Positions 2,212 to 17,440 of a DNA stretch of 20,550 nt are shown one piece after another. This DNA is from a virus, in IMG/VR virus record IMGVR_UViG_3300042868_001908, positions 1 to 20,550 of that record, one strand, 5' to 3'. Made by a program: the position numbers and the translations under genes. Under the pieces are notes generated by a model, which was not told the origin of the DNA, did not search any database, and was given only the letters and a program-made list of their open reading frames with translations. Each line of letters starts with the position of its first letter. Within the stretch, counting starts at the first letter, position 1.

Positions 2212-2787
2212 ATGAAAAATAGCCTAATCAATCAAATCAAAACTTTACTTGGAATGGAAGTAAAACTTGAACAAATGAAACTAATGGATGGCGTAACAGT
2301 TCTTGAAGCTGATATGTTTGAAGCTGGTAACGAAATATTCGTAGTAACGGAAGACGAACAAAAAATACCCGTGCCAGTAGGAGAATACGAAATGGAAGAC
2401 GGTCGTATGTTAATCGTTGTTGAAGAAGGAATTATTTCCGAAATTAAAGAAAAGGTTGAAGAAGAAGAAGTAGAAGTTGAAGAACCTATCGAAGAAGAAG
2501 CGAAAAAAGAACAAGAAATGGAAACAGCTAAAAGCGCTCCTAAAAAAGTAGTTGAAAGCACAATCAAAGAAAGTTTCTTTTCGGAAATTGAAGCGTTAAA
2601 AAAAGAGAACGAAACGCTAAAAGCTGAATTAAGCAAATTGAACGAGGTTAAAGAAGTTGAACTATCTGAAGAAGTTAAACCAATTTCTTTTAACCCTGAA
2701 AACGAAAACAAAGTTGAGTCTATAAAATTTGCGTCTAAAAGACCACGCACAATTATGGATTCAGTTTTAAACAAACTAAATAAGTAA
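2212..2787 (+). CDS. Capsid scaffold-like protein
   Basis: 191 residues in three parts. Residues 20-80 form a small beta-rich domain (VTVLEADMFEAGNEIFVV, then KIPVPVGEYEMEDGRMLIV). Residues 80-105 are extremely acidic, dominated by Glu and Val. Residues 115-150 are a coiled coil (EIEALKKENETLKAELSKL), and a basic C-terminus follows (KFASKRPRTIMDSVLNKLNK). Acidic, helical, with a basic C-terminal helix-turn-helix-like tail and located just before the capsid gene: this is the usual profile of a scaffolding protein, whose basic tail binds the coat protein. The N-terminal domain is a common companion in Bacteroidota phages. The role is inferred from composition and position. Confidence 0.6.
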   Translation: MKNSLINQIKTLLGMEVKLEQMKLMDGVTVLEADMFEAGNEIFVVTEDEQKIPVPVGEYEMEDGRMLIVVEEGIISEIKEKVEEEEVEVEEPIEEEAKKEQEMETAKSAPKKVVESTIKESFFSEIEALKKENETLKAELSKLNEVKEVELSEEVKPISFNPENENKVESIKFASKRPRTIMDSVLNKLNK

Positions 2788-2807
2788 TAATTTAAAAAAC
2801 AAAAAAA

Positions 2808-3230
2808 ATGAGTACAACATTAACAAGTATCTCAAATGATTCTTTACGTCAAGTAGGTGTAATTGAAACATTGACAGGTGCAACAACTTTAACTGCTGAA
2901 GATAGCGGTAAAGTATTTATCTTAAACGCTGCTGCTGGAGCGCAAATTACACTACCAGCGGTTGCTGATGGCGCTGGACAATCTTACAAGTTTGTAGTGG
3001 GTGGATTATTTGCAACAACTGCTTGGACTATTAAAGCGGCTACAAACAAAATTCAAGGTGGTGTTATCGTGAATAGCGTTAACGTACCTGGTGCTGATGA
3101 AAACACGATTACGTTTTCGGCTTCTAATGACACAATCGGAGATTTCGTTGAATTAGTAGGTGACGGAACAAACTGGTATGTTTTCGGATTGGGAACTGCT
3201 TCTGGAGCAATTACTTTAACCGTAGTATAA
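2808..3230 (+). CDS. Beta-rich capsid decoration-like protein
   Basis: 140 residues rich in Ala, Thr, Gly and Val, with the pattern LTAEDSGKVFILNAAAGAQ, TLPA, YKFVVG, TIKA and NWYVFG that repeats in phage beta-sandwich surface proteins. It lies 21 bases before the capsid gene, the place taken by decoration proteins in many siphophages, so it may coat the mature head. A domain of the same layout occurs in the product at 7845-8288 (ADANKIIKVDN, LRIP, TLIKIGTNEWVLSGD). A fibre or knob protein is the alternative. The upstream leader is a pure A-rich run. Confidence 0.55.
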   Translation: MSTTLTSISNDSLRQVGVIETLTGATTLTAEDSGKVFILNAAAGAQITLPAVADGAGQSYKFVVGGLFATTAWTIKAATNKIQGGVIVNSVNVPGADENTITFSASNDTIGDFVELVGDGTNWYVFGLGTASGAITLTVV

Positions 3231-3253
3231 ATAAAATAAAAAACTAAATAAAA

Positions 3254-4219
3254 ATGGAAAAAATTAACCTATCAACTACTCAAAGCATTACTACAACGTA
3301 TGCTGGTGAGTTCGCTGGAAAATATATCGCTGCGGCTTTGTTAAGCGCTCCAACCTTGGAGAAAGGCGGTATTACTATTATGCCTAACGTGAAATATAAG
3401 CAGGTAATTAAGCGTGTCAGTACAGATGACATCATCAAAAATGCGACGTGCGATTTCGACCCTACGTCAACAGTTACTTTAACTGAAAAAATTCTTCAAC
3501 CTGAATCTTTTCAAGTTAACTTACAATTGTGTAAATCTGATTTTAGACAAGATTGGGATGCAATTCAAATGGGATATTCTGCATTCGACGTTTTGCCAAA
3601 ATCATTTGCTGATTTCTTAATCGCTCACGCTGCTGAAAAAGTTGCTGCTGGGATGGAAACTTCTATTTGGAGAGGTGTTAACGCAACTGCTGGACAATTC
3701 GCTGGTTTAATGACACAATTAACTACTGACGCTGCTTTACCAGCTGCTCAAGAAATTGCTGGTACTACTGTTGACGCTACTAACGTTGTTGCTCAATTAG
3801 GTTCAATCGTTGACGCTTTGCCAGCTGCATTGTACGGTAAAGAAGATTTAACTTTGTATGTTTCTAATAACATTTATAGAGCTTACGTTCGTGCTTTGGG
3901 TGGCTTCGCTGCTTCAGGAGTAGGAGCTAACGGTTATGACAACAAAGGAACAAACCAAGTATTAAATGACTTGTATTTCGATGGTGTTAAAATATTCTTA
4001 GCTAACGGACTTGCTGCCAATACTGCGTTACTTTCTCAAACTTCTAACTTGTACTTTGCGACTGGTTTAATGAATGATATGAACGAAGTTAAAGTTATTG
4101 ATATGGGTGATATTGACGGTTCGCAAAATGTACGCGTAGTAATGCGATTTACTGCGGATGCGAAATACGGTTTTGCTTCTGACTTAGTTACTTACGGAAT
4201 CGTTAACTCGGCTAACTAA
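3254..4219 (+). CDS. Major capsid protein (HK97 fold)
   Basis: 321 residues with the layout of Bacteroidota-phage HK97-type coat proteins: an N-terminal arm (TTTYAGEFAGKYIAAALLSA), the segment LCKSDFRQDWDAIQMG, then SFADFLIAHAAEKVAAGMET followed by IWRG, a large middle region with the Ala/Gly-rich A-domain, and a C-terminus ending in strands (QNVRVVMRFTADAKYGFASD). Codon use is the most GC-rich in the region (many GCT codons), as expected for a very highly expressed product. The gene is followed at once by a strong terminator, which fits capsid being the end of its transcription unit. It forms the icosahedral shell after protease maturation. Confidence 0.9.
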   Translation: MEKINLSTTQSITTTYAGEFAGKYIAAALLSAPTLEKGGITIMPNVKYKQVIKRVSTDDIIKNATCDFDPTSTVTLTEKILQPESFQVNLQLCKSDFRQDWDAIQMGYSAFDVLPKSFADFLIAHAAEKVAAGMETSIWRGVNATAGQFAGLMTQLTTDAALPAAQEIAGTTVDATNVVAQLGSIVDALPAALYGKEDLTLYVSNNIYRAYVRALGGFAASGVGANGYDNKGTNQVLNDLYFDGVKIFLANGLAANTALLSQTSNLYFATGLMNDMNEVKVIDMGDIDGSQNVRVVMRFTADAKYGFASDLVTYGIVNSAN

Positions 4220-10507: not shown

Positions 10508-10547
10508 TACGCATTTCATACGATGCTTTGTTTAATTTATGATTGAA

Positions 10548-10576
10548 AGACCTCTACAACGGTAGGGGTTTTTTTA
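10548..10576 (+). terminator. Rho-independent terminator closing the lysis operon
   Basis: Stem ACCTCTAC (10550-10557) / GTAGGGGT (10562-10569) with a four-base loop and seven T residues. Compared with 4899-4918, one stem pair has changed in a compensatory way (A-T to C-G), which supports both hairpins. Confidence 0.88.
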
Positions 10577-10614
10577 TGCTCAAAAAAAAATATTAAAAAA
10601 AAATACTAAAAAGT

Positions 10615-10644
10615 TTGCTATATTAAATTTTTATATTAATTTTG
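10615..10644 (+). promoter_or_regulatory. Strong Bacteroidota-type promoter of the small-gene operon
   Basis: TTG (10615-10617), a 19-base spacer and TAATTTTG (10637-10644) form a full match to the TTG-N19-TAnnTTTG consensus. It belongs to a family of three matching promoter-leader units in this window. The first gene starts 23 bases after the -7 element, behind AATTAAAAACAAAGG. Confidence 0.8.
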
Positions 10645-10667
10645 GTCTATAATTAAAAACAAAGGAT

Positions 10668-10817
10668 ATGAAAAAATTAAATCAACAAAAAGAAATTTAT
10701 TTTAAAGGTCAGTTTTGTACTTTTATTTACTGGGAAACATTAACATCAAAAAATGAAGTAGCGGTAAAAATAGGAACTGGAATTTATAGTGTAAATATTA
10801 AATCATTAAAAAACTAA
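10668..10817 (+). CDS. 49-residue small protein, first gene of the small-gene operon
   Basis: The open frame runs from the ATG directly behind the strong promoter and the AAGG-containing leader. The product is basic, with a beta-like middle (GQFCTFIYWETL, then VAVKIGTGIYSVNI). No family recognised. Promoter placement makes it likely to be real and expressed early; small early phage proteins of this size often act on host functions, which is only a general expectation. Confidence 0.6.
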   Translation: MKKLNQQKEIYFKGQFCTFIYWETLTSKNEVAVKIGTGIYSVNIKSLKN

Positions 10818-10819
10818 TT

Positions 10820-10966
10820 ATGAAAAAACGAACAGGAATTTTAATTAACTCAATAATTATTTTGTTGGGTGCTAACTACGAAAGCTATTTATTATTAGGT
10901 GCTGGCGTATTATGTTTATCTTTAGTATTAATTTCTAAAACTAAAAGACATGAACTCAAAAATTAA
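10820..10966 (+). CDS. 48-residue membrane protein with two hydrophobic segments
   Basis: It starts two bases after the previous stop. A short basic N-terminus (MKKRTG) precedes two hydrophobic stretches (ILINSIIILLGA and YLLLGAGVLCLSLVLI) separated by NYES, then a basic tail (SKTKRHELKN). This gives a helical hairpin with both ends inside. No function known; inner-membrane accessory proteins of this type are common in phage early regions. Confidence 0.6.
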   Translation: MKKRTGILINSIIILLGANYESYLLLGAGVLCLSLVLISKTKRHELKN

Positions 10967-12403: not shown

Positions 12404-12408
12404 TACAT

Positions 12409-12503
12409 GGTTAGAGTCTCAAACATAGTTAACCTAAGGAAATTATTAACCCTTTCAATGATGCTGACGTGAGACTCCAGCTGATTTGATTGGGTTTTTT
12501 TAT
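12409..12503 (+). ncRNA. Candidate short structured RNA or attenuator leader
   Basis: A perfect 8-base inverted repeat GAGTCTCA (12414-12421) / TGAGACTC (12470-12477) encloses about 48 bases. Inside, GTTAA (12428-12432) can pair with TTAAC (12446-12450), while GGTTA (12409-12413) can instead pair with TAACC, so two folds compete. The stretch ends in GGGTTTTTTTATGC, nearly the same as after the terminator at 10548-10576, but the hairpin before the T-run is weak (TCCA/TGGG). It stands between a -7 element and the replication genes. It could be a small RNA, an attenuator or only a leader; no known RNA family was recognised. Confidence 0.35.
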
Positions 12504-12520: not shown

Positions 12521-13165
12521 ATGGCAAAAGACAAAAAAGGATTTATTTTGTACGCTGATCAAAAAGCAATTTTTGAACAACTACCTAATGAGAAAGCGGG
12601 TGAATTGATAAAGTTTATATTTTCATATGTAAATGATGAGAACCCAGAAACAGACGATTTAATTATTAAGTTAGGATTTACACCTATTCAACAACAATTA
12701 AAAAGGGACTTGGTAAAGTACGAAGAAACTAAAGAAAAACGAAGTGAAGCGGGCAAAGCTGGTGCTAACAAAAGATGGCAAACAATAGCAAACGATAGCA
12801 AACGCATAAATGATATAGCAAAAATAGCTGATAATGTAAATGATAATGTTAAAGATAAAGAATATATAGATTTTCAAGCGTTGCTTGAGGTTATTAATTT
12901 TTCTTTTAGTAGAAAGTTTGAAATGATAAATGAAGTTACACAAAAGAAATTCAACAAGCTTTTAAAAGATGGATATAAAAAACAAAATATTCTATTTGCT
13001 ATAAAAAATTGTGCAAACGATACCTTTCATAAAGAAAATAATTATAAATATTGCACTCCTGATTATTTTGCAAGACCTAAAACAATTGATATGTACGGTA
13101 ATGATTTACCAATTGGTATTGTAGAAGAAAAAAACGCAAACAACACTTTCGCATGGGACAGATAG
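12521..13165 (+). CDS. Replisome organiser-like protein (DUF6291-type N-domain, Phg_2220-type C-domain)
   Basis: 214 residues in two domains. Residues 5-85 (KGFILYADQKAIFEQLPNEK, then LGFTPIQQQLKRDL, then KRSEAGKAGANKRW) match a DUF6291-type domain found in phage replication regions. Residues 118-192 (FQALLEVINFSFSRKFEMIN, then LLKDGYKKQNILFAI, then YKYCTPDYFARPKTIDMYG) match the conserved phage replication C-terminal domain (Phg_2220_C type) that recruits the helicase or loader. Between them, residues 86-112 are a low-complexity Asn/Asp/Ile linker encoded by tandem DNA repeats. The gene overlaps the helicase gene by 13 bases. It likely opens the origin and loads the replicative helicase. Confidence 0.72.
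   Translation: MAKDKKGFILYADQKAIFEQLPNEKAGELIKFIFSYVNDENPETDDLIIKLGFTPIQQQLKRDLVKYEETKEKRSEAGKAGANKRWQTIANDSKRINDIAKIADNVNDNVKDKEYIDFQALLEVINFSFSRKFEMINEVTQKKFNKLLKDGYKKQNILFAIKNCANDTFHKENNYKYCTPDYFARPKTIDMYGNDLPIGIVEEKNANNTFAWDR
12778..12808 (+). repeat. Iteron-like tandem 10-base repeats inside the replication gene
   Basis: Three adjacent units GCAAACAATA (12778-12787), GCAAACGATA (12788-12797) and GCAAACGCATA (12798-12808); an imperfect fourth, GCAAAAATA, lies at 12818-12826. The 10-base period matches one DNA turn, as for initiator binding sites, and does not match the codon period. Confidence 0.7.
12830..12865 (+). repeat. AT-rich 12-base tandem repeats next to the iterons
   Basis: GATAATGTAAAT (12830-12841), GATAATGTTAAA (12842-12853) and a weaker GATAAAGAATAT (12854-12865). 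Being AT-rich and directly beside the iterons, they look like a DNA-unwinding element. Confidence 0.6.
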
Positions 13166-14208
13166 ACGGATTTAAAATAACTGAAACTTCAGATGTAATA
13201 GATAAAATCTTTAAACACCGAGATAATTACCACGTCAAAGGCAAGTATTTAGGATTTGAAGTAATGGATAAACACTATTCAATGAGTTTAGGTAATTGCA
13301 CGGATTGGACGGGTTTTCCTATGAGTGGTAAAACGCAAGTATTAATGGAGTGTTTAATGAATACTTCTAAATTTTACGGTTGGAAACATTTAGTTTATTT
13401 TCCCGATGTAGGTAACAACGTTGAAATATTAGCCGATTTATTACACAAAAAAACGGGTAAAAGTTTTGACCCGAAAGCACATAACACAATAACGGACGCT
13501 GAAATTACCCGTGAAATGGACTGGGTGCTAAATCATTTTAAAATATTAACACGAAAAGACACAAAAGGAAAAATAACACCCGTTGACTTTTGGAAAATGG
13601 CGGTTGAATTAAAGTACGAAGAAGGACTTCATACGGCTTCAATTGATAGTTGGAAGGACTTAAATCACGAATACGAAAAATACGGTGGTTACGCACAATA
13701 TTTAGAATACGTTTTGCCTTTGAGAAATTATTTAGCTGAAGAAAACAATCTACATTTTCATACAATAATACACCCTAAGCTAACTGAAAAGGAAAATGGT
13801 AAAAGAAACGCACCTACGCCGCATGATTTAAAAGGTGGTAGTGAATGGTTTAATTCAGGCAAGTGCATGATAACAGTACACCGTGAAAACCCGAGTACAA
13901 ACGAAGTACAAATTTATTTCAATAAGATTAAGCCACGATCGATAGGCGAAGTAGGAGAAATATTACTACGTTTTGATAAAAGTAAATTTGTGTATTACGT
14001 TGATGAATGGCAAGGTAACCAAAGTTTCAATAAGTACGCACAAGAAAAACACGAATCAAATAGTTTTCCTGTTAAACAATCTGTATTAAAGCCTGATATT
14101 GTAAACGGAAAAGAATTACTTTCGTTTAGCGAACGAATGAAGCAAGGCGCATTTGAAGAATTAAAACCAATTGAAAACAAGAATGGCGAAATGACTATGC
14201 CTTTTTAA
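13153..14208 (+). CDS. DnaB/RecA-fold replicative helicase
   Basis: 351 residues. Walker A at 54-61 (GFPMSGKT) after a short N-terminal segment; a Walker B-like strand at 159-166 (LHTASIDS) with Asp165; then HTIIHPKL (203-210) and DLKGGSEWF (225-233), which correspond to the DnaB/Twinkle motif region H3/H4 (HP-K...DLKGS). Its length suits a stand-alone DnaB C-terminal helicase core without the N-terminal collar domain. It overlaps the organiser gene by 13 bases, so the pair is co-translated, in keeping with organiser-helicase loading. A RecA-like ATPase with another role is the alternative. Confidence 0.78.
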   Translation: MGQIDGFKITETSDVIDKIFKHRDNYHVKGKYLGFEVMDKHYSMSLGNCTDWTGFPMSGKTQVLMECLMNTSKFYGWKHLVYFPDVGNNVEILADLLHKKTGKSFDPKAHNTITDAEITREMDWVLNHFKILTRKDTKGKITPVDFWKMAVELKYEEGLHTASIDSWKDLNHEYEKYGGYAQYLEYVLPLRNYLAEENNLHFHTIIHPKLTEKENGKRNAPTPHDLKGGSEWFNSGKCMITVHRENPSTNEVQIYFNKIKPRSIGEVGEILLRFDKSKFVYYVDEWQGNQSFNKYAQEKHESNSFPVKQSVLKPDIVNGKELLSFSERMKQGAFEELKPIENKNGEMTMPF

Positions 14209-17282: not shown

Positions 17283-17440
17283 ACCCCGAAGTAAACCAAG
17301 AAATACAAGAATTAAAAAAAGAACTAAAAGAATTAAACCAATTAGTAAAAGCCTTATTAACGGTAACAGATGAAGGCGGTACTGTAAATGCTGATTCTTT
17401 AGTAATTAAAATGTTAAAAGTAAAAATAAATAAAAAGTAA
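17279..17440 (+). CDS. 53-residue helical protein, unknown
   Basis: ATGA-coupled to the exonuclease gene. A charged helix (QEIQELKKELKELNQLVKAL) suggests a short coiled coil, followed by a loop rich in Gly/Thr and a basic end. No family recognised. Location inside the recombination operon suggests a helper role, unproven. Confidence 0.55.
   Translation: MNPEVNQEIQELKKELKELNQLVKALLTVTDEGGTVNADSLVIKMLKVKINKK

Follow-up and report, generated by a model that had tools for sequence, protein, structure and literature searches.

A probable phage replication origin within the coding region of a DUF6291 protein gene

The question raised by this locus is why the middle of a phage gene should carry tandem repeats of 10 bp, a period that does not match codons. 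The window analysed here is a 20,550-nucleotide stretch of viral DNA (IMG/VR record IMGVR_UViG_3300042868_001908, positions 1 to 20,550). The gene in question lies on the plus strand at 12521..13165 and encodes 214 aa, in the order DUF6291 (PF19808) N-domain, basic arm, repeat-encoded linker and C-terminal helical domain. An earlier note, made from the letters alone, had taken the repeats for a candidate origin. We favour the same reading, with a probability of roughly 0.83: 12521-13165 would encode a phage replication initiator, and the segment coding for its linker, 12775-12859, would be its own origin, bound at iterons, melted at an AT-rich run and loaded with the helicase.

The array occupies 12775..12833 (plus strand) and is built of 10-bp units of the form ATRGCAAACR, with consensus ATAGCAAACG. 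A unit ATGGCAAACA at 12775-12784 is followed by two copies of ATAGCAAACG (12785-12794 and 12795-12804), a degenerate unit (12805-12814), ATAGCAAAAA (12815-12824) and a last unit, ATAGCTGATA (12824-12833), which comes after a 9-bp step and runs into the AT-rich run. TRF reports 12769-12804 at period 10 (3.6 copies) and 12829-12858 at period 12 (2.5 copies). The 10-base and 12-base tandem units that the earlier note had placed here are therefore borne out by the sequence, by TRF and by a repeat search. Its count of three units and an imperfect fourth describes real units, but the array begins about 3 bases earlier and extends further.

A 10-bp period rotates the reading frame, so that every third unit falls in frame and would place a TAG there. 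Among the TAGC arrays that were examined, units lying in frame carry TGG or AAG where the others carry TAG, and GCAA is retained. In the window gene, the TGG codon of Trp86 (12776-12778) is such an in-frame member of the array. Avoidance of stops in third units also explains the unit that had appeared imperfect: the third unit, earlier taken to be 11 bases long, has 10, and ATA stands at 12806-12808, where the next unit would have placed its TAG in frame. A pattern scan with TAGCAAANNNTAGCAAANNNTAGCAAA was discarded, as it returned zero ORFs on the matched strand; three successive TAGs 10 bp apart put one in every frame, so that such a scan is self-defeating for coding arrays.

Is it the DNA or the peptide that imposes the register? 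The null model used here keeps the protein exactly and redraws the codons from the usage of the locus itself. Tested by itself, the window gene exceeds synonymous recoding in lag-10 self-match with p=0.012 and 0.025, which is only modestly significant, and it is the family result that settles the reality of the repeats. In 103 non-redundant DUF6291 genes (<70% identity; IMG/VR contigs, GTDB genomes and phage records), the linker lag-10 self-match is 1031, against 481 under the synonymous null (z=36), and lag 20 gives z=32. Apart from lag 19 (z 10), no other out-of-frame lag between 7 and 23 departs from zero by more than about 1.5; the in-frame lag 9 reaches z 8.7. Among out-of-frame lags, 10 or 20 scores highest in 88.5 of the 103 genes; in 36 of them, taken singly, lag 10 does not reach significance. 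A few of the 103 represent the same contig twice (L053/L154, L060/L162, L063/L164), which leaves the result unchanged. No lag-10 excess was found in the control segments, whether N-domain (z -1.4), C-terminus (z -2.1) or neighbouring genes (z 0.0, n=94), and the same test applied to lambda O as a positive control recovered its known iterons, at lags 20 and 23 (p 0.002). Selection on the DNA, which the earlier note had suspected from a period out of phase with codons, is thus observed at the scale of the family. The homologues also behave in the opposite way to what would have refuted that note, namely a conserved linker peptide without tandem repeats: the peptide is changed or lost, and the 10-bp repeats and the AT-rich run are kept. 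Relatives of only 127-138 aa retain the N-domain, arm, repeats and AT-rich run without the C-terminal domain, and the segment is therefore not merely an inter-domain linker.

The array is the best lag-10/20 self-match within the 20.5-kb window. Compared over whole genomes, the corresponding array takes first place in the window, Flavobacterium phage 11b, CRP19 and D478, second place in lillamy9-1 and third place in Olleya phage Harreka_1; as it is not top-ranked in every genome, we regard this ranking as supportive only. The bare 10-mer is not rare in the window (7 matches with at most one mismatch, against 6.15 expected), and the signal is the tandem 10-bp register, not the 10-mer as such. 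An exact additional copy of GCAAACGATA lies at 13013-13022, within the region coding for the C-terminal domain; it could be a chance occurrence or an outlying site.

Hundreds of relatives preserve the DNA pattern through changes of the repeat sequence and of the amino acids it encodes. At least seven unrelated repeat sequences share the 10-bp spacing, the position and the subsequent AT-rich run. By subfamily, the repeat units are TAGCAAA, TAACAAA, TCAAC, TCGCA, CGAAGC, ACCCA and ATGCGA, plus rarer ones, and the 10-bp signal per class is z 25 for TAGCAAA, 18 for TCGCA, 10 for TCAAC, 9 for ATGCGA, 9 for ACCCA, 8.5 for CGAAGC and 7 for TAACAAA. Some classes are also repetitive in peptide. In the TAAC group, a concerted G-to-A change (TAGC to TAAC) runs across the array at differing codon positions, converting GCA to ACA, AGC to AAC and GCT to ACT (A to T, S to N). 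The same base change thus affects units at different codon positions, which indicates that amino acids change to preserve one DNA motif. On the N-domain tree we count at least 59 class changes, against 85 with shuffled classes, and there are too few columns to place the switches. One gene (L118, positions 2501-3703 of a record titled Woesebacteria) has a linker of about 170 residues made almost wholly of GAAGCGAACGCTTCAAATTCGAAGC-type repeats, inverted copies included; plasmid relatives were sought with this query and none was found.

The array gives way to the AT-rich run GATAATGTAAATGATAATGTTAAAGATAAA (12830..12859, plus strand, 17% GC, peptide DNVNDNVKDK), a candidate DNA-unwinding element. 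Within the gene, the 40-bp segment of lowest stability begins at 12831, and only 1.2% of the 40-mers of the window are less stable than 12830-12869. Across the family, 98 of 103 genes have an AT-rich run after the array, and its codons are biased: GC3 is 42/1280 in the run, compared with 3557/12426 where these amino acids occur outside it, and Asn is encoded by AAT in 353 of 360 cases, against 876 of 1490 elsewhere. Variation within the hexamer of the run is found at the non-synonymous positions 2 and 5, and the synonymous positions are fixed as A or T. The 12-bp repeat period of the run is in frame. AT-rich tandem repeats are also seen elsewhere in the window, at 10582-10612 and 10619-10643 (both of period 13), in a region devoid of long ORFs (10515-10949). 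A 21-bp tandem repeat of 2.6 copies occupies 17288-17341, in a 53-aa ORF adjoining a single-strand-binding-protein-like gene.

If the repeats are binding sites, which part of the protein reads them? The candidate is a basic arm, residues 69-86 (ETKEKRSEAGKAGA-NKRW, 12725..12778, plus strand), directly upstream of the repeats. Using a 14-residue arm (window residues 69-82) that ends where the repeats start, and a nearest-neighbour assignment over 90 genes, we predicted the repeat class correctly in 92% of cases, against 47% with the N-domain and 20% with shuffled labels; the arm still reached 87% once genes with similar N-domains were excluded. For an out-of-sample check, IMG/VR was scanned with DNA patterns only, and the ORFs found were then inspected. 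The class of the arm matched the DNA pattern in 45 of 48 (lenient version). When only residues upstream of the pattern were admitted, the arm succeeded in 31 of 41, against 5 of 41 for the nearest N-domain; this strict test failed in five of the eight CGAAGC cases. The residue signatures proposed to go with each class are G-A-xxRW with TAGCAAA, G-M with TAACAAA, S-A with TCAAC, G-N-LKRW with TCGCA, GG-xKSGE with CGAAGC and NGxxGGRPK with AACCCAAAAA. The arm signatures are spelt with diverse codons, which indicates conservation at the protein level. The statistical coupling of arm and repeat class is an observation; that the arm contacts the repeats is probable, and is inferred in the absence of binding data. 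Arm and repeats are physically adjacent, and linkage may account for part of the association. A broader proposal, for which we consider the chances to be even, is that the arm is a short portable DNA-reading element with a simple residue code, and that arm and origin form a single cassette that evolves or moves as a whole across initiators of the DUF6291 and Lin1244 types, letting phages switch replication specificity with the rest of the initiator kept.

The N-terminal domain had been called DUF6291-like, and this is confirmed by Pfam: the window protein matches PF19808 with E 9.8e-24 (83.8 bits, against a cut-off of 27.2) over residues 7-84, the match spanning the N-terminal 79 profile positions. 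A fold search with this domain gave no recognised DNA-binding relative and no fold match, which is not proof of a new fold. The AF2 model of the window protein has a mean pLDDT of 82, falling below 50 for linker residues 104-110. The C-terminal helical domain (about residues 115-200, 12863..13120, plus strand) bears a weak likeness to the DnaD C-terminal region and to Phg_2220_C; it aligns to DnaD 9a5c_B with a VIA-align Z of 5.1 over 68 residues, at 4.0 A. The Phg_2220-like assignment of the earlier note has indirect support only: the homologue L107 has a weak match to Phg_2220_C (2.5e-5, 24.7 bits, under the cut-off of 27), but the window protein itself gave no profile match to Phg_2220_C / TIGR02220. 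The domain is entirely absent from some relatives.

The next gene (13153..14208, plus strand) encodes a RecA/DnaB-like ATPase related to primase-helicases (phrog_5482, 2.3e-70), with further matches to the DNA primase/helicase families phrog_239 (4.7e-11) and phrog_18375 (1.5e-10). Among ten downstream genes scanned in relatives, eight were DnaB-like, Toprim primase-helicase or DnaC-like loader genes. Position and neighbours fit the replication organiser that had been proposed. On the other side, the stretch 12408-12500, just 5' of the initiator gene, contains an inverted repeat (GAGTCTCA ... TGAGACTC) followed by a run of seven T, which is possibly a terminator, an attenuator or a structured leader.

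Taken as an origin, the segment would work as follows. Copies of the initiator would bind side by side on the 10-bp iterons, one per helical turn and all on one face of the helix, the iterons probably being read by residues 69-86. The bound complex would melt the adjoining run at 12830-12859, where the product of the next gene, the helicase, would be loaded. Each of these steps, from binding of the protein through melting and loading of the helicase to the firing of the origin, is an inference from sequence and its comparison. GC skew, one of the checks suggested by the earlier note, was dropped as evidence for an origin: raw minima lie near the gene in two phages (0.19 kb in Harreka_1 and 0.41 kb in CRP19; Fisher p 0.005), but the signal vanishes after correction for gene strand (p 0.13, six phages).

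Among the nearest known arrangements is that of the lambda origin in gene O, with iterons in mid-gene and an AT-rich tract alongside; the order of iterons, AT-rich tract and helicase gene in the window resembles that of lambda O/P (PMC7466680), and our synonymous-null test detects the lambda iterons too. In the Bacillus phage SPP1, oriL likewise consists of direct repeats and an AT-rich unwinding element inside gene 38, which encodes the origin-binding protein gp38, acting with the loader gp39 and the DnaB-type helicase gp40 (PMC6316719). Three features of the lambda O-type layout put forward in the earlier note are present: intragenic tandem iterons kept by selection on the DNA, an adjoining AT-rich run and a helicase-related next gene. 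There are also differences. The four lambda iterons are 18 bp long and stand some 20-24 bp apart, whereas the window units are 10 bp long and abutting; the window protein has no match to a Pfam O-domain (to E 0.1) or to the PHROG O family (to E 0.01); and a frame rotation that avoids stops, together with many repeat classes and an arm coupled to them, further distinguishes the present arrangement. The best explanation, by analogy, is an arrangement working like lambda O and SPP1 oriL, outside the lambda O protein family, with initiator binding and firing inferred. Iterons and an AT-rich unwinding region bound by a cognate initiator are also known from plasmid origins (F, R6K, P1), where the iterons are usually 17-22 bp long and lie outside the rep gene.

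A comparable design is found with another N-terminal domain family, Lin1244_N (PF14297, DUF4373), in which 28 genes for phage or prophage replication proteins have repeats at lag 10, out of frame, downstream of the N-domain (z=24). In this family L289 and L287 carry KSA/KRSA-type arms, and TCAAC repeats were read directly in L289. The AT-rich run differs in being mostly of SKVK type; among the Lin1244_N prophage proteins with 10-bp repeats (L281-L290, L297-L317), many have SKVKESKVK-type AT-rich runs. The 10-bp pattern thus spans different initiator families. Two IMG/VR contigs (L250, L251) contain an ORF of about 450 aa with a winged-helix-looking N-terminus, a linker of TCGCA repeats 10 bp apart and then a poly-Glu run, which suggests that the intragenic-origin design reaches yet another family.

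Several other explanations of the segment must be weighed. The repeats could be operators, through which the protein or another factor regulates transcription of its own gene or acts as a roadblock, the origin being elsewhere. The DNA-level repeat data fit this equally, and there is no direct evidence of firing. An intragenic operator, however, needs no melted run, and an easily melted one, with codons pushed to A/T, stands right after the array in nearly all genes; the layout is moreover that of the proven lambda and SPP1 origins. We therefore hold operators to be unlikely, though less so than the remaining alternatives. It could also be argued that A-tracts phased at 10 bp produce intrinsic curvature, sequence-specific binding of the units not being the point, as the units have A-runs once per turn and the lambda iterons are intrinsically bent (PMC7466680). 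This leaves unexplained why the non-A cores (TAGC, TCGC, ACCC, TCAAC, CGAAGC) are kept within each array, change in concert and match the protein arm, and we consider it very improbable.

No greater weight is given to the possibility that selection maintains a low-complexity linker in the protein, the DNA repeats being a by-product of slippage or of peptide constraint. Peptide-level repetition in some classes and the in-frame period of the AT-rich run speak in its favour. Against this, the exact-peptide null yields less than half of the lag-10 signal, the repeats rotate through all three frames with third units avoiding stops, the same 10-bp DNA design accompanies different peptides, and proteins of 127-138 aa retain it although they have no C-terminal domain to be linked. 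The segment might finally be a partition (centromere-like) or recombination site inside the gene, since iterons and AT-rich DNA occur at partition sites too. It lies, however, within a replication module, adjoining helicase, primase and loader genes, and in the window its neighbours include no recognised pair of partition genes; this possibility is the faintest of all. The intragenic origin thus remains our preferred reading.

Our literature search found no paper on DUF6291, and none treating direct repeats and a replication origin together in a Flavobacterium phage. The present reading gives this domain of unknown function a role, as a phage replication initiator, and places a probable origin in numerous phages and prophages of Bacteroidota, as well as in certain relatives from Bacillota and Vibrio. 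It would also be a case of dual coding, DNA sites at the helical period of 10 bp being threaded through an ORF, with every third one edited against a stop. The coupling of arm and repeats, finally, makes a possible protein-DNA recognition code directly testable on dozens of natural variants.
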